Source: Spirogloea muscicola (Eukaryota; Streptophyta; Zygnematophyceae; Spirogloeales; Spirogloeaceae). From it: a stretch of DNA of 32,906 bases. Each line of letters begins with the position of its first letter. Position 1 is the stretch's first letter. The stretch lies in NCBI GenBank assembly GCA_009602725.1, contig WELB01000100.1:345711-378616 (forward strand), written 5' to 3'. Below the pieces are notes generated by a model that worked only from the letters and a program-made list of their open reading frames with translations, ran no database searches and was not told the DNA's origin. Below, one piece after another: positions 3,524 to 18,775 of this stretch. The translations under genes and the position numbers were made by a program.

Positions 3524-6500
3524 ATGGACAGCTGGCGGCGAGTGCTGGGCCTGCTGCTCCAGAACCGCTGGCTCGGCCTCGTCGCCGGCATGTGGATCCT
3601 CGCCTGCGCCGGCAGCAGCTACACCTTCGCCATCTACTCGCCCGCGCTCAAGAGCCGCCTGCGGTACAGCCAGCAGCAGATCGCCAGCCTCGCCGTCGCC
3701 AAGGACGTCGGCGACAGCGTGGGCATCCTCGCCGGGATGCTGTGTGATGTCTTCCCGCCTGCTGGAATGCTGCTTCTGGGCGGCTCGCTGGTGAGCAGTT
3801 TGATCTGTTGCTGATAGTTAGTCTATAAATGATCGCTCAAGATGAGGCCTTCGCACTGGGAAGCTTAAGCTTCTGCTGACCTCGGTAGTACCTGTGATGG
3901 GACATAGATAAGAAATGCTTGTACGATAAGCACGTGCAGACATTGAGGCCTTTCTACGTTGCTTCCCACACTTCATAGTAGAAGCCCTCAGTCCCTAGCA
4001 GGCTCAGTGTCAGTTTCCTGTCAGCTCAAAATGCATAGCCTGGGCTACCGGATCACAGGCATTATACGGATTTTGCTCCACTGGCGAATGAGAAAAGGTT
4101 TTATGTCTGTCTACACACGTCGTCCACGCAACTCAACCTTCCACGCTTTCACAAATGTAGAATCTGCTGGGATTTGGGGGCTTGTGGATGGTTGCCAGCG
4201 GAAGAGTCCCACAGCTCCCGTTCTGGCAGGTTGGCACTTCACTTCATTTGCTCAGCTCCAGATTCTCAGAGTCCTGTGAAGGGAAAGTGGACTCATCATT
4301 TGAGTACTCTGCCTGTCAATCGTCTGCTACAATAATCACTGTTGACGTTCCACTCCGGCTGGTGGTATAGATGTGCACACTCATTGGCCTTGGCACAAAT
4401 GGAACAACTTGGTTCAATACAGCCGTACTCGTCACAGTGGTGCGCAATTTTCCTAAGAGCAGAGGCCAAGTTGTGGGGATTCTGAAAGGGTTTCTTGGAC
4501 TCGGGGCAGCCGTTTTTGCGCAGCTATACACGGCAATATACAGCCCCGACCAGGTGATGCATGCTCAGCCACAGGAAGGGAGCAGCCGCAGACACATTAG
4601 TGTTCAGATTTCGGGTGTAGAAGTCGACCTGGCGATCAGTGACATAGCTTTGGTCATGTCTGAGGTCATGTCTGCAGGACTACTTACAACTATTGCTGCA
4701 TAGGTTAGCTGCAGTGGACTGCTTAAAGGGGTCCATGAAGTTGCAGACACTGACTGGCGCAGACCTTGTCAATTGCACTGACCAGGTATTCCTGTGCAGG
4801 TTTCGTTTCTCCTCCTGATCTCTGTGCTACCACTTTGTGTCAACGTTGCTGTCTGCTCCTTCCTCCGACCCCTACATCAAGTTCAGGAGGAGAGTGAGGA
4901 AGAGGAACACAGCAACTTCTCTTTCATTTATTTCATCTGCCTCTTCCTGGCCTTCTACCTCTCTGTTGCTGTGCTTGTCCAGGAATTCACATACATCAGC
5001 CGTAAGGTATTGTAGCTGTCCCTTATTAACGGTTGTCTTTGTAGCAAGTGCAATGCAGTTGTAGCTTGACGACTTTCTGTATTCTGGGATGAACCTCCAC
5101 ATACCAACTCTTGCAGCAGTACAAGGTGACCTCTGCAGTTGTTCTCTGATGTGATAGTCGCCCATTTTCAACCCTACCCATGTATAATCAAGCACTCACC
5201 TTCCCACATTATGGCCTGCACAGGCCGATGCTGCAATTGCAGGTGTCATGCTTGCCATTCTGTTTATGCCCTTGGTGACACCTGTGAGGTCCACGTTGAT
5301 CAAGTACATTGACAAGTCCCTCAAGGGAGCCCGCGGTGCCTTTGAAGCACTTCAGAATGTGAGTGCAGAATGTGCTCACGCCTGATCCATAGGAGTTGCC
5401 TCCTGTGACTCCACTGTTGTAGTACTTGCCTTGCTCTTCAGGTGGATAGAACGTCGGTCAACAATCACGTAAGCTGGAGATGTGATATGTCTGACAATTG
5501 TGGGTGTCTCACTGACGCGGAAAGGGCTGTTGTGATTTCCAACAGGAGCAACATGTGGCTGCAGTGCACGAGCATCTCCTTCCTGAGAAGGACACACTTG
5601 CTTCCGAAAGTATACTGGAAGAGAATGAAGAGCAGTACCCATCACAGGCAGCAGATGGCAGGAACTCAGGGACCAGCGCCAGCCCGCGGCCAATCATCTC
5701 ACATGCTGATGAGGAGGTCCTTGAGACTGACGAGGACGAGGAGAGGACAGAGGAGCCCTTTGTTAGGCATGCTCCAGGTTGAGTCGGCTCTACTTGTTGC
5801 AACAAAGCTTTGCCTGCGTGTCAGCAAAGTCAGCTACATCAGTTGCATGGTGTAGATGATGGTCGTCTCACTGAATGCTCAAGCATAGCCTTGTACGAGC
5901 TCCCCTTCTCCATCCCACAATGTGTGTTGGTTGTGACTACGTTGTTGCATCTTCGTGCCTGCAGTCAGGCGCATCAGTTCGCAGCTGCTGCTAGCTGTGG
6001 GAGAAGGTGCAGTCAAGCGCAGGAAGGGGCCCCGCAGAGGCGAAGACTTTACCTTGAGTCAGGTCTGCTTCATCAAGTTCCTGCTTGAGGGTGCTAAGGA
6101 GTACTGAATGTCGATAGTCCTGGCACGTTGATGTCTTTCTCGCACACCTCAAACATGCTGAATTTGATCTATTGATTCACAGTCTGACACTAAAGAACTC
6201 AAGCTCTCGTAGAGTCTGTAAATTGACTATCTTCTCATGTCTGTTTTGCAGGCTGTTGTGAAGGCCGACTTTTGGCTTCTATTTCTTGGCTGTGTTTGCG
6301 GCTGCGGCTCTGGCATGACAGCCATCAATAACCTCGCCCAAATTGGGCAAGCCCAGGGCTACACCACAGTCAACATATTTGTCTCAATGGTCAGCATTTG
6401 GAATTTTTTGGGAAGACTTGGTGCTGGTTACCTGTCCGAGAAGGTTGTAAGGTACGCTTTGTAATCTCATGCACTACCTCTCATGCACTACCTCAAATAC

Positions 6501-7450
6501 CTGGAAATAATCAGAGGTGAAGATGCTCTTTGCTCTTTCTTGATTAGAGATGTCTGTTAAGGCACGCCTGCGCTCAACAGCTAAAGTATCAGAGTACTTG
6601 GCTGCAGGGAGCATGCATTGCCTCGACCTATCATTCTTGCGATAATGCAACTGCTCATGTCAATTGGCCACCTCCTCTTTGCTCTAGCTGTTCCCAGCTC
6701 CTTGTACATTGGCTCATTGCTTATTGGTAAGCGCCCAGTGTCCTACTTACCATGATGGGCATGATTTTGTGATCCATAATTGGTTCTGAAGGTCCTGGGC
6801 ATCCTGGAGAGGATGCAGGTATTGAGAGCTGGAATGGAGGTCATTGTCTTGTCCCTGAGTATGCATCTGTTTTTGTAGGCCTAGGGTACGGTGCGCACTG
6901 GGCAATCATGCCTGCTACAGCATCTGAACTCTTTGGGTTGAAGAACTTTGGAATATTGTACAATACTCTCACGATTTCCAACCCAGCAGGTGCAATTACA
7001 AGCACTTCTGCAGAGCCGTTGTTGACCTCTCTGGGTAGTTGCTGAGGTGAGATTGCAATGTGCCGAAGGTACTGCTTATTGTGAGGCTAACGAGGCCCAA
7101 GAATGGCTTCTGCAGGCTCGTATCTATTCTCAGGCCTACTTGCCGGTTACATCTACGACAGGGAGGCTGCTAAGGGCCACCGTGAGCAGTACAGCAGCTT
7201 TGGGTCACACAACAGCACGGAGCCAGTTCCTCAGCAATGCACTGGGGCTCACTGTTTCCGACTCACATTCTTTGTTATGATGGGCGTCTGCTTTGTAGGA
7301 GTAATACTGAATGTCATTTTGATAGTCAGGACGAGACCAGTGTACAAAATGCTCTATGGCAAGCTGCAGGAAGGAAAGAGGATCACAGTTGAGGGCTTGA
7401 GCAAGCCTGTGACAGCTGTGACTGACAGTTCCCAACAACGAAAGCACTAG
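3524..7450 (+). CDS. NFD4-like nodulin/MFS membrane transporter, 11 exons, 651 aa
   Basis: Exons: 3524-3790, 4161-4229, 4371-4553, 4800-5006, 5224-5358, 5546-5777, 5965-6062, 6252-6451, 6608-6726, 6879-6989 and 7116-7450. All introns are GT-AG and all phases match. The ATG sits in a strong GCCGCCATGG context. The first half is a Nodulin-like domain: GMWILACAGSSYTFAIYSP near residues 21-39, the FPKSRGQVVGILKGF block in exon 3, and YIDKSLKGARG in exon 5. The second half is MFS-like: RRGEDFTLSQ, VKADFWLLFLGCVCGCGSG, GYGAHWAIMPATASELFGLK. About 12 hydrophobic segments predict a polytopic membrane protein. Two acidic loops (EESEEEEHSN; DEEVLETDEDEERTEE) are cytosolic-loop candidates and help make it longer than I expect for the family. 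The substrate is unknown; plant relatives were named after nodulins and a nuclear-fusion mutant. A TGTAA lies about 25 bp past the stop and could be the poly(A) signal. Confidence 0.92.
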
Positions 7451-9702: not shown

Positions 9703-12700
9703 TCAGTGTCTTCGCATGGGCGCATTGGAGCCATCCTTGTGGATGGGGCCCATCCTTGGGTCGCTATCTGGAAGCAGCCTCTTGGGCGCCGCCTCACTAT
9801 CTACGGAAGCAAGGCTAGGGGAGGACGTCCTTGACTCAGCATCAGCAACAGTCGGAACATGCTGCTGTGAAGCACTAGCACTCTGTCTCCGTGCTATTAC
9901 TTCCTTCTTCGCTAGATTCAATATTAGCATTGCATCCAATTTGTACTGCAGAAACAAAGGCAACGACCACATTCAGAGACTGTCAAAAGCTGCAGTAGTT
10001 CTACTGAGTAGACACTGAAGCAGGTGAAAATGGGACTCTTCCAGTCCTTTCTTGCGAGCTTCACATAGAACAGCAGTTAACGGCAACATAGGGAGCAGAT
10101 ATCACCTCGCTAGCTGCCCCTGATCGTATCTTAGCAGCCATTACAGTCCACTTCTTGAAATGGACGCCTGCAGGACATAGAGAGATGGCAAATGTCCTCA
10201 AAGTTATCTTTCTCAGACTGCAGGAAGGCATGTTGTGGTTGAGCACCTATGCAGCTTGTCAAGAGTTGCTTATTGATGGCAGCTATTGTGCCTGTTGTAG
10301 CATCTATAGAAGAAGAGTCATCAGACCGCCGGTAGGATGCTCTTTCCGTGTTAAATGTTGAGTACATTCTCTATAATGCTTCATCCAGTCGCATGTAGGG
10401 CCTGTTTTAGTCTCATTCACTGTGGGCTTTCGGGGATTGTCATAAGTATCTGCAGGATGGCCACTGGAAGTACCTGATGTTACAGTGACTGTGCAAGTAC
10501 TTGATGATTCATTTCGTACCCTCCACAACGCTTGAACCTGATTCATGTAGTCAAACAAGTTCCTGGTGTGTTATGATACGTGGAAGTCAATAATTGACAT
10601 GTCAGAGCTTATTGAGTTCTCCACACACGTCCAGCATGCTACCAGTCCAGAAGGCCTACTGTGTCTTAGTTTTGTGGTTGAAGAAGGGTCAAAAGATGAT
10701 GGTGCCTACTTCAAAGTATGTTCCAAATGGTACATCATGAGCCTGGAGGACTGTCTCTAGTAACTGGGAGGAAAATACGCACAGGAAGAATCAGAAGCTA
10801 GAGCAGATGTATAATGCTAGATGGTTGCAAAGACAGGACCACAGTAATCCATTGACTAACAGCAAGAAGAGGCTGAACAACCTCTGCAACAACCTCTACG
10901 CACTACCTCTCCTCTGGGTTTCCAGGAGCAAGCTATTCAGGGTTGAGACATGGTGCAGAACACATTACCAGCGTGGACTTGTCGTCTTCAAAGCATGTCC
11001 GTTGCCAGTCAGTCATCGAAGTGGAGGGAGGGCACATGGGGCTATTGCACAAAGAGCGAAAGTCAATCTGCAGAAAGTGCGGACAAGTTGGATCAAAGCT
11101 TCACCAAAAAACCATCAATTTGTCACCTTGTTAGCATGTCTTCACCTTTACATTACGCATCCTGATCTTTGAAACCAGCAAATTATGGTCCATAAAGGCA
11201 GCACGAGAGTCACATGTAATGGCTAACCTTCCTGACCATGCCTCCAAATTGCTCAGAGACATGCCACTTCTCCACCTGCTTGTATGAAGTACCGATGTGA
11301 ATACAAAGGTACATCTCTTGCAAGCTGACTGCCAACTTGCAGTGCACCATTAGAAAGCCCAGAGCAGTGCTTAGGCACCAAAGTTGGAGAAGGCCGAGCC
11401 TCTCAAGGCAGTAACAGATCCTTGCTTATGGTGCACTAAGCTCACCTTCAACTCGCTATCTTTTCGGGCGTTTCTATATGTCGAAGTGAATGTTGATGAG
11501 TCATCAAGCAAGAATGTAAAGTACTCCTCAGCTGTACACGGTAAGCTATCCTGAAATCCAGATGTCAGAATTCAGCATGTGGAATGTAACCGTTGAACTT
11601 TCAGCAACCAACATGGAAAGTTTAGGAGAATCCAATCATCTTGCAAGCAAAGGCCAAGCTTTGCGCAGAAGCATAAGAAGAGCTGCTGCACGAGACTCAC
11701 CGATACTAGTGGCTGGAGGACTTCGTGGCTCAAGAATGGCTGCACAGGCTTGGATCGCGGCGGTGAGCGAGGAAGTTTCACCAAAGCACCTGGCAAAGGG
11801 AGAGGAGTAAACAGAAATTGGATTCCACACTCAGAGCGACAAAGTTGGGCAAAGGAACAACTTTCCAATCTCTTGGGGCATGCTCAATGGTGCTCGTCTT
11901 TGTAGGCAGCTACACAGAGTGGAAGAGGTATGTGCTGAGATTCACCATCCAACTCAGTATGCAGGTCCACACGACCACTCCGAGCCCGCATCAAGGACTG
12001 CTCCGCTTCCTGACAGGAGCAGAAAGAAACTCCACATTGAGTGACTATGGTGATGCTTACAGAACTACAACCCTGTGCCAAATGTCTTGGTTCCTCGACC
12101 TTGCGAGTACGTCTTAACCGTCGAACAAATCAAAGGCCAGTTTCATGCTACCCATGTAGGGGGTAAGCCAAGGTTCTGCCAGTACCTGGACCTCAGCCTG
12201 CTCCATGGTTGCGTAGTCAGCCACAGCCTTCTGGAGCAGTCGCAGGGAATGATTGCGATTCCAGAAGGATGCAAACTTGTATTTTGCCCTCCCTGTAGTG
12301 GTGAAGGAAGTGACAAAAGTCAACAGTCCCACTTGAGCTAACAACCACAGAAGATGGTTAGAAGTCTCTGCAGACGGATCTAGTACCAAAACGCCTGTGT
12401 GCTTTATATACGTGATAGAAGAAGCAAGGAAGTCCATCCCCAAGGCTGTATCTAGAAATTCCACAAGAGAGGCAGGGGCCTACAAGCAAGTACCATCTGG
12501 GCTTGCCAAGGGGGGCACACCATGACCACCAGCTCCAGCGCGCAGGATAAGTGTGACGGAGGGATTGATCATTGCGTGTTGGCTTCTCCGCATCTGTGTC
12601 ACACTGGGGTGATCTCAGATAATAGCCAGCTACATGCCGCAGGATAAGCGTGATTGAGGGATCAATTGCATGTTGCCTTCTCCAGATCTGAGTCATATGG

Positions 12701-15558
12701 GCTGATCTTTTACTTTAGCCAGCCACATGCCTGTAAACAGACTGACCTCGAACAATTCACGTACTCTGAACACATTATTTCATCGAAGCCAAGGTCTGAG
12801 CTGAAACCCTGACCCTAAGGTCAATCAACATGTTTAGCACTCGTTTCTAATAGCTGTATATGCCCTGACTTTGCGGCTATAAGGCGCGCATGTCGGTCAC
12901 AAGCACATCCTGTCAGAGGACTGCCTGGTTAGGCAAGCTCTGCGTGAACCATGTCTAGCTGGTTAGGACTTGCCTCTTCAATATCCTCCAGAGGGAGGAT
13001 GACTTTTAGTTGCTTCTTGAAGAGATTTGAATGAAAGCAGATGTGCCAAGCCGATATGTACATTCTTCCATGATACAAGAAAGACCTCTCCAGCCCACAA
13101 GAGAAGCTGTGCAAGACTACCTGCAATAGTGTCAACGACGTTCATTACAATACCTGATTGCCTTGTGAAACGTGACTGCAAGATAGCTGCAATGCTCAGT
13201 CAATAAACTGCCACCAGTTGCTGTGCAGGCAGCTTGACAGTAGCCTAACCTCATCAGGAGGCAGGTCGAATATTGTCTGCAGTGGGCCAGGCTTCTGATG
13301 CACCTCTGTGGCCACCTGCTCTGTGGACCCTCCATGGGAGTAGCGCCTTAGCTTCAAAGCTGATGGAAAGCCACGGCCCATATTGCCGTTTGATGGCCTG
13401 TACACTCTTGGAGCATACGGTAAAAATTCAGCAGGTTGTCAATCACAGTGAAGAAAAACATAATGGTCAGCACACAGCCTTCCTGGAGCCTGCTCAATAA
13501 GTTCCAAGCTTGTCCATGCAGTGCTTTAAGCTTGATGGAAAGCGCACCCTGACAAAGTAGTGGCGTGCATTTTGCTCTGCAATTGGAGACAGACCTGCAA
13601 AGAGACACAAAATGGTAACGAGTCACAGCGCCTCACCGCCAAGCTCTAATAACGGTGTAGGACTAGACAGCTGGGGCTACCAAGAGTCAGGGTCGAAAGT
13701 GTGTCATTGCAGGATAATCTTTCATATACGACAGTGTGAAATACCACCATGGTGAGGTGGTGGAAGTACAGCGAAGATCCTTGAATATAAACAATGATCT
13801 CATGCTGCGCTAATCTCCAGATCAATTATGGGAGAAAACCGCGGCAGTGTACTTCCAATAGACCTAAGAAGGAGGTTCTAATCAGAAATGCAGATAGTCC
13901 ATCACCTGGCCAGAGGTCCTGTCCAAGAAATACCAATCTGCTTCCCTCTCTTCACCTTCCTCGATGACTATAGTTGTGCTACCTAACTCCGAGCTCTTGG
14001 AGATGATGTCCCAATCGTAGATGCTAATCAAAATCTGCACCAGAAGACATAAGTAAGTGGGCACAATATGTAGGCTGCGACCTACTAGGTTCATCTCGCG
14101 TTGCCCATCGATGTATTTACTGGCCCGTGATTTGTGCTTTAAACAATCGCTGTTTGTGACACACGCACAAAAACTACCTTGACAGGCATCTCTTCAGTGT
14201 AGAAGTCAAACTCCTCACCCCACATTGGGTTTCGCGAGCCCATGACAGCAGAGCTGCAGAACAGCGGATCTCAAGCTCTGGAATTTGCCTAAGTCGAACT
14301 TAAAAACCAGTGTGCGTGCTAGACCACCAGTTTGTCAACAGTAACCAGCATACAAAGAAGAGGTCACTGGCAAAGTGACTGCAAGCTGAAGTCCTCAACA
14401 AACTCTTCTAGCACACTGTGTTGAGCGCATACGGCAGCAAGCTGACCTGAACCGCTTCTGTGAGCCACAAGTGATGACTGCATAAGGGTCTGAGGTGCCA
14501 CTTATGTTGGCGGCTTTCAGATTCTTGGCTGCAAGAAGTTGAAGCTGCACGGACGATGACAGGGTCCACTCACAACAATCTTAGTAGATGTGCCAATAAG
14601 ATTGTCTCTGGAACAACTGCAGCACTGTGCGACGAGCAATATGACTGTAGTAAACTTGTAGGAAGTGCAGGACTGATGTGTCGGCAATTCAGTCTACCAT
14701 AGCAACCGTTGTTGACACTGCATGAAGGTGGCCTCTGACCAAGCGTGTGAACGAGTGAGTCGAGCTTTCGGTGAGAGCACTATACACACATGTATCTGGT
14801 GCATGTGACCCGCACTGGACTCCGGGATATCCGCCTCCGCTTTCTGTGTCTTTACCTGCACGAGAGGAGAACTACATCAATTGCAAAGGTGTCTTCTCAC
14901 TCAATTGTCCTCTGAAAGGGCCAAGCCATCATACATCTCACCATTGATGTACACGACCACATGCAACTGCCGCTTCAGAGTAGATCGAAGAGACTTGCCG
15001 ACACCCATGGCAAGAAGCGGGTGCATGCACAGTAGCTGCATGGGGCAGGACTAACAGCTCAGGCACCTCATTCGCATCATGCGCTGGTGGTGCTGGAGCA
15101 GCAACAGACGTCTCAAACTGTTCCAGCTTCGTCTCTTTCCTTGCCTTCTGAAATCGCGAAACATGATCACAATCACTCGAATGGTGGACAGCAGCTGCCT
15201 GAACCTGCCTTGAGGAGCACAGAAAATCTCAACTGCAATCTGCCACATCCTAAGGAGCATTACTCGTGCACTTCAACAGAAACATCAAAACAGAAACATC
15301 AAAGTATAACTATGCTTTCCTCATTATCTACAAGGCTTGCACAAGCCTGACTGGTGCAGGAAGGCGCACCCTGAGAGCCCGGGGCTTCTTAAGGGCATGC
15401 TGCCAGGAGGCAGGCGAGGCCCGGGGGGCCTCTCTCTCCAGGGCGTGCTGGAGTAGGACAAAGAGGACGATCACGAGCACCGCCGTGACGAGCGACATGT
15501 TGACCTCCCGCCACGAAGGTATCAGCAGCGCCGCCGCGGCCCTGGCCAGCCCCTCCAT
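9703..15558 (-). CDS. BAGP1: C2-GRAM-VASt domain protein (BAGP1 type), 20 exons, about 707 aa
   Basis: Exons 5' to 3': 15558-15370, 15147-14953, 14855-14790, 14544-14447, 14253-14178, 14034-13906, 13594-13548, 13397-13250, 13120-12974, 12593-12494, 12292-12192, 12009-11946, 11789-11701, 11550-11446, 11275-11228, 11067-10969, 10763-10710, 10537-10474, 10167-10106 and 9945-9703. Phases agree throughout. Domains: an N-terminal hydrophobic anchor ([19 protein letters not shown]); a C2 domain at about 145-250 ([31 protein letters not shown]), which typically binds Ca2+/phospholipid; GRAM at about 310-405 ([52 protein letters not shown]); VASt at about 465-640 ([36 protein letters not shown]). In plants BAGP1 binds BAG6 and acts in basal immunity. 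The first two exons are least certain: the exon 2 donor is ambiguous and in-frame ATGs at 15711/15708 or 15498 are alternatives. Odd points are a GC donor after exon 9 and a second copy of exon 10. Confidence 0.88.
12540..12735 (-). repeat. Tandem duplication of a GRAM exon and flanking intron
   Basis: Two diverged copies of a roughly 97-bp unit lie head to tail. The used copy (about 12540-12638) carries exon 10 sequence [18 protein letters not shown] with its acceptor at 12594. The upstream copy (about 12639-12735) keeps an acceptor at 12688 and encodes [18 protein letters not shown] without a stop, one codon shorter. A possible donor (CAT|GTAGCT) would give a 54-bp in-frame exon at 12687-12634. 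Confidence 0.8.
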
Positions 15559-16500: not shown

Positions 16501-16834
16501 TTAATTCCATGTGTGCTAGCTTCAGCGCTTTCCCTTGGCCCCTTTGCCTGTGTTCATTCCATTTTCTGGGCTGGCCTCTCCCAGCCACCGCCCTCTCCTG
16601 GAAGCGTCTTCTATCTTCTTAAGATTAACAGTGTCAATGCAGGCTGGAAAAGACGTCAGTACCGACGAGTGAGCACATACAGATGAGTGAGCACATACAT
16701 GTATCTGAAAGACTAGCAGCCGGAAAGAACGACGCTTCCAGTAGAGGGCGATGGCTGTGAGTGGCCAGTCCAGATGACCAAATGAACGAGTTTTGAAGGG
16801 GCCAGAGGAATTGCTAAGCACACAGCGACTCAAG

Positions 16835-16905
16835 TGGCCACGAGGCACTCAGTAACCCCTGTTGAGCAGCCGCAAGTCAGAGAAAGTAGTCTCTGGGTGG
16901 CAGGT
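16835..16905 (+). repeat. Interspersed repeat R3, copy 4
   Basis: ACTCAGTAACCCCTGTTGAG and CAGCCGCAAGTCAGAGAAA are the inverted counterpart of 16430-16490. The intervening 16570-16830 contains foldback-family motifs such as GGCTGGCCTCTCCCAGCC and no gene. Confidence 0.65.
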
Positions 16906-16914
16906 CCCCTAGCC

Positions 16915-17175
16915 AGACCCAGAGGCTGCAGCCAATGCACGACCGGCATGCAGATGCAAGGCGTGGGACCGCTGTAGTGCCGTTAATTGCTGCAGCGAGA
17001 CTGACAGGCGCATGTGATGCACCTGAGCGAGAGAGCCTGCTGCCTTGAAGTAAGCCCGCTGCCCGTGGTAACAGCGGGACAAAGGCGGAAAGCAACCCCC
17101 TTGACGAAAGCCAGAGGCTGCAGCTAGAGCACGGCCAGCACGCAGATGCAAGGCGTGGGACCGCTGTAGTGATGT
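16915..17175 (+). repeat. Direct repeat pair
   Basis: A segment of about 60 bp with GCAGATGCAAGGCGTGGGAC then CGCTGTAGTG occurs at 16918-16978 and 17110-17172. Diverged forms are seen at 970-1040 and 17610-17665. It is probably an internal module of the same repeat family. From 17175 to 17480 I see only foldback-type motifs. Confidence 0.7.
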
Positions 17176-17489
17176 GGACTGCGCATGCAGAGAGATCAGA
17201 AAGTAGTTGAGTGCCTAGTGGCCACTAGAGTCGCTGTGCGTTAGCGCTTTTCTGCCCCTTCAAAATTTGTTCAATCTTTTCCCTGGGCTGGCCATTCACA
17301 GCCATCGCCCATTACTGTGCGTTCCATTGGCCTGGCCTCTTGCAGCCATTGCTGTAAAGTTGGAAGAGCTGTTGTTGTGTGTGGAGTCTTTCTCTCATTC
17401 TTTCTCATCTCTCTCGAGTACTTTGTTCATTATTTTCTTTGGGCTGGCTTTTACCAAATAACGGAGGGGCCTAAGGAGCGCTAAGCAGC

Positions 17490-17600
17490 TACGAAGGGGC
17501 CTGAAGATGCTATGGCAGAACGGGGGAGGATGGACCACTCAGTAGTTACGAGTGAGGAGCTTCAAATCCGACAGACTAGCTGCCAAAAAAGTATGCCCCC
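17490..17600 (+). repeat. Interspersed repeat R2, copy 2
   Basis: Nearly identical to 9005-9110: GGCCTGAAGATGCTATGGCA, GGACCACTCAGTAGTTACGA, then TCCGACAGACTAGCTGCC. It forms the left edge of the amplified array that extends to about 19890. Confidence 0.75.
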
Positions 17601-18084
17601 TGCCGAAAGGCGGAGGTCGCAGCGAGAGCACGGCCAGCACGCAGATGCAAGGCGTGAGCCATGGACCGCTGAATCAGAAGTGCGCGCCATAGAGAAGAGG
17701 GCTGGCAAAGCCAGCCCCAAAAAGAATGGACAATGTCCAAAGCCGAAGAAAGAGGAGCCGGAAAAAGGACTACTCTACAAAACACTGCAGAACACATAGA
17801 CGATGCAGAGGAAAGCTCAGTACCCACGAGTGAGCAACATCAGGTCTGAGTAGCTCGCTGCAGGGAAAGAGGCACTCTGCCGAGACCCAGAGGCGGCGGC
17901 CATAGCACGGCCTGCTCGCGTGTGGATGGCGTGGGCAAGGGAGAGAAGTGCGCGCCCATAGAGAAGAGGGGCTGGCAAAGCCAGCCCAAAAAAGAATGGA
18001 CAATGTCCAAAGCCAAAGAAAGAGGAGCCGGAAAAAGGACTACACCACAAAACACTGCAGAACACATAGACGATGCAGAAGAAG

Positions 18085-18200
18085 AAGAAGTGGCTCTCCC
18101 AAGGGGGGCAAGGGCTGTGAGAAGCCAGCCCGAAAAGAATTGACAAGGAGCGAAGGGGCCAAACTACGAGCTAAGCAGCGACTGCGGGGCCTGAAGAGGC
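18085..18200 (+). repeat. Interspersed repeat R1, copy 2
   Basis: GGCTGTGAGAAGCCAGCCCG then AAAAGAATTGACAAGGAGCG and GCTAAGCAGCGACTGCGGGG match 19757-19880. Here the box B-like GGTTCGAAGGG is changed to GGAGCGAAGGG. Confidence 0.7.
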
Positions 18201-18401
18201 TATTGCAGAACGGGGGAGGATGGACCACTCAGTAGTTACGAGTGAGGAGCCTCACATCCGATGCAGAGGGAAGCTCAGTACCCACGAGTGAGCAACATCA
18301 GGTCTGAGTAGCTCGCTGCAGGGAAAGAGGGACTCCGCCGGGACCCAGAGGCGGCGGCCATAGCACGGCCTGCTCGCGTGTGGACGGCGTGGGCAAGGGA
18401 G

Positions 18402-18775
18402 CGTTGAAGCGATATGGCCAGGCGCATGCGGAAGACTTGTGCGAGCGAACCGGCGGCGTTGAAGCCGGGCATCGCCCCTGGCAGACCCGGCCGCCGATCA
18501 ACTGGCGGGCAAGCCGCTGAATGAGATCCAGCCAGCGGCTGCCGAAAGCCCCGTGTACATCCATCGCCAGGGCCGCGAATTCATCCCCAACCGGGTGATC
18601 AGCATATTTTCGCTCCTTGTCCCGGGCCGCCCTGGCCGACCGCGTGCCCTGCAAACGACGCCGATATGGTGGGATTGGCGGAGTCGATGCAGTCAGTTGT
18701 CACCACTTCGGCGATGATGCGGGGACCGCCGCCGGGCGGGATGGCGACCAGGTCGGCGCGGCGTGTATGGGGCGG
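18402..18775 (-). pseudogene. Retrotransposon endonuclease-domain fragment, tandem copy 1
   Basis: Reading on the minus strand gives HTRRADLVAIPPGGGPRIIA, EVVTTDC, then after a frameshift near 18630 KERKYADHPVGDEFAALAMD and GAFGSRWLDLIQRLARQ. This is the core of the restriction-like endonuclease domain (D, D, K-x2-Y/H spacing) of the same lineage as 21717-22251. A short deletion near 18500 distinguishes it from its sister copy 950 bp to the right. Confidence 0.75.

Follow-up and report, generated by a model that had tools for sequence, protein, structure and literature searches.

Partial tandem duplication across the intron 6/exon 7 border of a C2-GRAM-VASt gene in Spirogloea muscicola: a probable intron relic

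The host gene and its surroundings

The window, i.e., the whole stretch of 32,906 nucleotides of Spirogloea muscicola contig WELB01000100.1 that was analysed, carries on its minus strand a gene whose modelled part was spliced by hand into 14 exons (Table 1). The hand-spliced product matches, in this order and above the Pfam cut-offs, the C2 (57.7 bits), GRAM (59.5 bits), and VASt (62.8 bits) domains, and the host gene thus belongs to the C2-GRAM-VASt class. We take it to be BAGP1-like, as did the earlier note. The order C2, GRAM, VASt is common to the host gene and to the C2-GRAM-VASt proteins of plants (PMC4082322), a likeness that concerns the host gene only. When the 109-residue GRAM region was compared with viral and genome contig collections, 2 and 46 pattern matches were obtained, respectively, with no confirmed relative among them, and a search of solved structures returned one distant match, the yeast LAM6 in a fusion construct (E=2.5e-5).

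The first and second GRAM exons, E6 and E7, are separated by intron 6. This intron is the only GC-AG one among the 20 introns used for our splice-site matrix, and it combines the donor GAG|GCAAGT with a weak acceptor. In one survey, GC-AG splice sites average 1.2% across plant species (PMC6310983). Intron 6 and its surroundings fold ordinarily (z=-1.04; 10 of 100 shuffles reach an equally good or better fold), so RNA folding does not point to any special structure in this region.

Matches to other protein families also lie in the window. On the plus strand, a Nodulin-like/NFD4 major facilitator gene (3524-7447) was modelled with 11 exons, and matches the Nodulin-like (280 bits) and NFD4_C (75 bits) families. 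At ~20.9-21.4 kb, on the minus strand, a reverse transcriptase match (PF00078, 40.2 bits) is probably part of a retroelement. Further on, the plus strand carries at ~23.5-26.7 kb, in this order, an RRM and a RanBP-type zinc finger, both below cut-off, and an OCRE domain above it (34.1 bits); these pieces resemble an RBM5/RBM10-type splicing factor gene. RNA family and tRNA searches of the window found none.

Table 1. Positions of the gene, exons, intron, and duplicated segments within the window
Feature	Positions	Strand	Description
C2-GRAM-VASt (BAGP1-like) gene, modelled part	10710..14559	(-)	14 exons, hand-spliced; Pfam domains
First GRAM exon, E6	12974..13120	(-)	147 nt; GC donor GAG|GCAAGT; splice frame and Pfam GRAM match
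Intron 6	12594..12973	(-)	380 nt, GC-AG; upstream copy at its 3' end
Upstream copy of the duplicated unit	12639..12731	(-)	93 nt aligned; 76% identity to 12638-12542; Tandem Repeats Finder (TRF)
Open 54-nt form of the upstream copy	12634..12687	(-)	AG before, junction-made GT (12633) after; 18 residues
Stretch to splice out if both copies are included	12594..12633	(-)	40 nt; spacing to E7
Downstream copy of the duplicated unit	12542..12638	(-)	97 nt; intron 6 contributes 45 nt and E7 its first 52 nt
True second GRAM exon, E7	12494..12593	(-)	100 nt, phase 0 to 1; donor ATG|GTACTT; spliced frame continues into E8

Extent of the tandem duplication

At the border between intron 6 and E7, a minus-strand unit of ~97 bp is present twice in tandem, with 76% identity over 97 columns. 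Tandem Repeats Finder reports this repeat at 12541-12731 with a period of 94, 2.0 copies, 77% matches, and a score of 226, the top of the 16 rows obtained for the window. The local alignment of one copy against the other scores 76, while 2000 dinucleotide-preserving shuffle pairs give a mean of 15.5 and a maximum of 27. The tandem duplication that the earlier note had placed at 12540-12735 is thus borne out by both approaches, with coordinates correct to a few bases. Using blastn with E up to 1, we found no further occurrence of the unit in the window.

Pairs of real sequences, with N runs and other repeats let in, were used as a further control. Among 1000 window pairs, 23 reach the score of 76, and 45 do so among 2000 pairs; in 24 of these 45, both stretches contain N, and the remaining 21 all lie within 16.8-18.5 kb. 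In another set of 2000 pairs, the best 4 all fall in another repeat at 17.7-18.4 kb. Elsewhere in the window, scores of this height are thus confined to N runs and to a different set of true repeats. The stretch 16800-18500 is itself repeat-rich: direct repeats of 143 nt (97%) and 115 nt (96%) are found within 17600-18401, and further similar sequence pairs start at ~16.8 kb.

The unit had been described as ~97 bp long and as containing the second GRAM exon. The size is right, but the exon is not contained as a whole: the unit consists of the last ~45 nt of intron 6 followed by the first ~52 nt of E7 (12593-12494), a true exon of 100 nt in all, so that the similarity of the upstream copy to E7 spans about half of this exon. 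As read directly from the sequence, the tandem duplication is genuine and partial. We also considered an assembly artefact and rejected it, because roughly one position in four differs between the two copies.

Exon forms and splice sites of the upstream copy

In the upstream copy, an AG precedes position 12687 (acceptor TGACTCAG|ATC) and is followed by an open frame of 17 residues, which starts I W R R Q H A and counts one codon fewer than that of the downstream copy; 54 nt lead from this acceptor to a GT at 12633. The earlier note had pointed out the acceptor, the open frame, the missing codon, and the 54-nt distance, and all of them hold. About 45% of 17-codon stretches of such composition would be open by chance. 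Neither the second half of E7 (16 residues) nor its donor ATG|GTACTT is represented in the upstream copy. The GT at 12633 is the start of the second unit and would be intron-derived sequence placed there by the duplication.

Splice sites were scored with a matrix built from 20 introns modelled by hand rather than from cDNA, the true sites being left out in turn. The acceptor of the upstream copy scores -0.4, below all 20 true acceptors (0.4 to 11.8), among which the acceptor of E7 is also weak (0.9). When the 32 AGs of intron 6 were scored, 19 of the 31 others, E7's own included, beat the AG of the copy (18 of 30 among the unused ones). The donor of the 54-nt form at 12633 scores 1.1, below 19 of the 20 true donors (range -2.3 to 9.1), and 40% of all GT sites of the window score at least as high. 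A site may be used in spite of a low score, as the weak true acceptor of E7 illustrates; this weakness, together with the small size of the matrix, means that the sites of the copy are shown to be unremarkable, not dead. The top-scoring unused AG of intron 6 is located at 12730 (GTCTGTTTACAG) with a score of 8.1, and splicing there meets a stop after six codons.

The upstream copy had been presented as a still splice-competent exon. This view is unsupported, given the scores of its donor and acceptor, the 40-nt intron that would be left to remove, and the absence of the donor of its own exon. An open frame and an AG are insufficient to make a splice-competent exon, and caution is needed on this point.

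The mutually exclusive use that had been suggested is ruled out by frame for the 54-nt form under the gene model. Indeed, the 54-nt exon alone in place of E7 runs from phase 0 to 0, versus 0 to 1 for the 100-nt exon, and the frame is lost with a premature stop in E9. Tandem exon duplications giving mutually exclusive exons (PMC5740500) resemble this locus by their neighbouring homologous exon-like copies and their open frame; they differ from it in that here half an exon is copied and the 54-nt form is 46 nt shorter, which is not a multiple of three.

A longer form of 85 nt (12687-12603, with a GT at 12602) could also be envisaged as a mutually exclusive exon, replacing 16 residues of E7 in frame with 12 others. 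Its phase equals that of the 100-nt exon and its in-frame product is open; moreover, a length difference that is a multiple of three and GT-AG ends are among the criteria by which such exons are predicted (PMC5740500). As 9 nt remain between this form and E7, the joint inclusion of both is forbidden. However, the donor AGT|GTGACA scores -3.0, under all 20 true donors, with 82% of the GT sites of the window scoring at least equally, and about 16 of the 28 codons of this form are homologous to E7, and we consider its use extremely improbable. Among the 10 GT/GC dinucleotides of the upstream copy that were scored, a GC located 61 nt in (CTG|GCTATT) reaches 2.3, with the same phase as the 85-nt form.

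The 54-nt exon could instead be a cassette, sometimes included together with E7. With phase 0 on both sides and with a GT and an AG present, its inclusion keeps the frame and adds 18 residues between PLEDIEE and MRRSQHA in the GRAM domain, and the mild third-position bias described below also favors it. The GRAM profile gives 48.8 bits with the insert versus 51.1 without it, a score that says little because the match enters the insert by three residues only. On the contrary, such inclusion requires the removal of a leftover intron of 40 nt, a spacing read from the positions of the two copies, while the 23 introns modelled by hand measure 126-380 nt in the C2-GRAM-VASt gene (13 introns, intron 9 having 126 nt) and 126-370 nt in the Nodulin-like gene (10 introns). 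The candidate intron is thus about a third of the shortest of them. For human introns, efficient splicing has been described as requiring a minimum length (PMC5435141). Furthermore, both the acceptor and the donor of the cassette are weak, and its GT would derive from the intron, having been placed there by the duplication. Hence, the in-frame character of the 54-nt inclusion, put forward in the earlier note, stands under the gene model, but this inclusion needs a 40-nt intron to be removed between sites that are weak at both ends, and we consider the cassette highly improbable.

Whether as an 18-residue cassette obtained through an unusually short 40-nt intron or as an 85-nt exclusive exon swapping a GRAM loop, it is very unlikely that this half-exon duplicate is in use as an alternative GRAM segment. 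If it were, it would illustrate how a partial duplication turns into a new exon, with a donor taken from the duplication junction or from the sequence past it; transcripts proving the use of the copy would make it a small but clear case of an exon formed from half of a duplicated exon and a junction-made donor.

The acceptor at 12687 could finally be used with read-through into E7, which adds 94 nt and leads to the loss of the frame and to a stop in E8. By this way, the partial use of the upstream acceptor could act as a non-productive switch, the frame-shifted transcript being cleared by nonsense-mediated decay and expression being lowered. The GC donor of intron 6 and its weak true acceptor are consistent with such a switch; however, there is no sign of the site being kept for it and stronger unused AGs lie nearby, so that we regard it as unlikely.

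Origin of the upstream copy and differences between the copies

The upstream copy is most probably a fairly old, decaying partial tandem duplication, i.e., a non-productive relic within the intron. The duplicated exon part is half an exon devoid of its donor, and the 54-nt form used alone and the 94-nt read-through both shift the frame and run into stops, according to frame arithmetic carried out under the gene model. As a working splice into the protein is hardly possible, the copy most likely represents a commonplace remnant of a small tandem duplication. In such a scenario, ~97 bp across the intron 6/E7 border, reaching about halfway into this exon, would have been duplicated in tandem long ago. 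Only the downstream copy continues into the remainder of the exon and its donor; for this reason it would have remained the working exon, and the upstream one would have been absorbed into the 3' end of the intron, where it would be decaying with no productive splice route. Its AG would be at most a weak competitor of the true acceptor, yielding some frame-shifted transcripts, and the upstream copy is perhaps a source of non-productive transcripts.

The absence of productive splicing is what we infer from these observations, as is the age of the duplication. The earlier note had offered a mutually exclusive exon, a cassette exon, or a recent decaying duplication; of these three readings, decay fits best, but "recent" is doubtful because the copies are ~76% identical.

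Partial tandem duplications across an intron-exon border form a known class, producing a pseudo-exon with a duplicated acceptor. The present locus shares with this class the duplicated AG, the part of an exon behind it, and the worn copy in the intron, and no difference is evident. Within introns, partial tandem duplications are commonplace and, as it stands, this one is of little import.

The identity between the copies amounts to 41/50 (82%) in the exonic part and to 36/48 (75%) in the intronic part (p=0.46). The exonic part of the upstream copy is thus not significantly better preserved than its intronic part, which we count in favor of the relic. On the other hand, the third-position bias between the copies, the exonic gap of exactly one codon, the weak acceptor of E7 itself, and the dependence of the scores and intron lengths on hand-modelled introns (20 and 23, respectively) speak against it.

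The third-position bias is the main result against the relic; it hints at coding constraint and does not decide. The 16 codon pairs lying wholly inside the unit show 9 differences, distributed 3:0:6 over codon positions 1, 2, and 3; 4 are synonymous and 5 are not (dN/dS ~0.33; Fisher p=0.20). In simulations that shared out the changes between the two copies in five different ways, an upstream copy that is open and carries at least 6 third-position differences is obtained in 3.6-22.2% of neutral cases, versus 71-77% when this copy is constrained and 34-53% when it is relaxed. This bias is mild evidence that some past or present coding constraint may have acted, or that most changes may have occurred on the working copy. 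The codon straddling the junction was left out of these counts, as its difference is not a substitution, and the signal of constraint is consequently weaker. When it is counted, 10 differences are distributed 3:0:7, 5 synonymous and 5 not, with a dN/dS of 0.26 (p=0.10), and the corresponding simulated outcome is reached in 1-12% of neutral and in 33-66% of constrained or relaxed cases.
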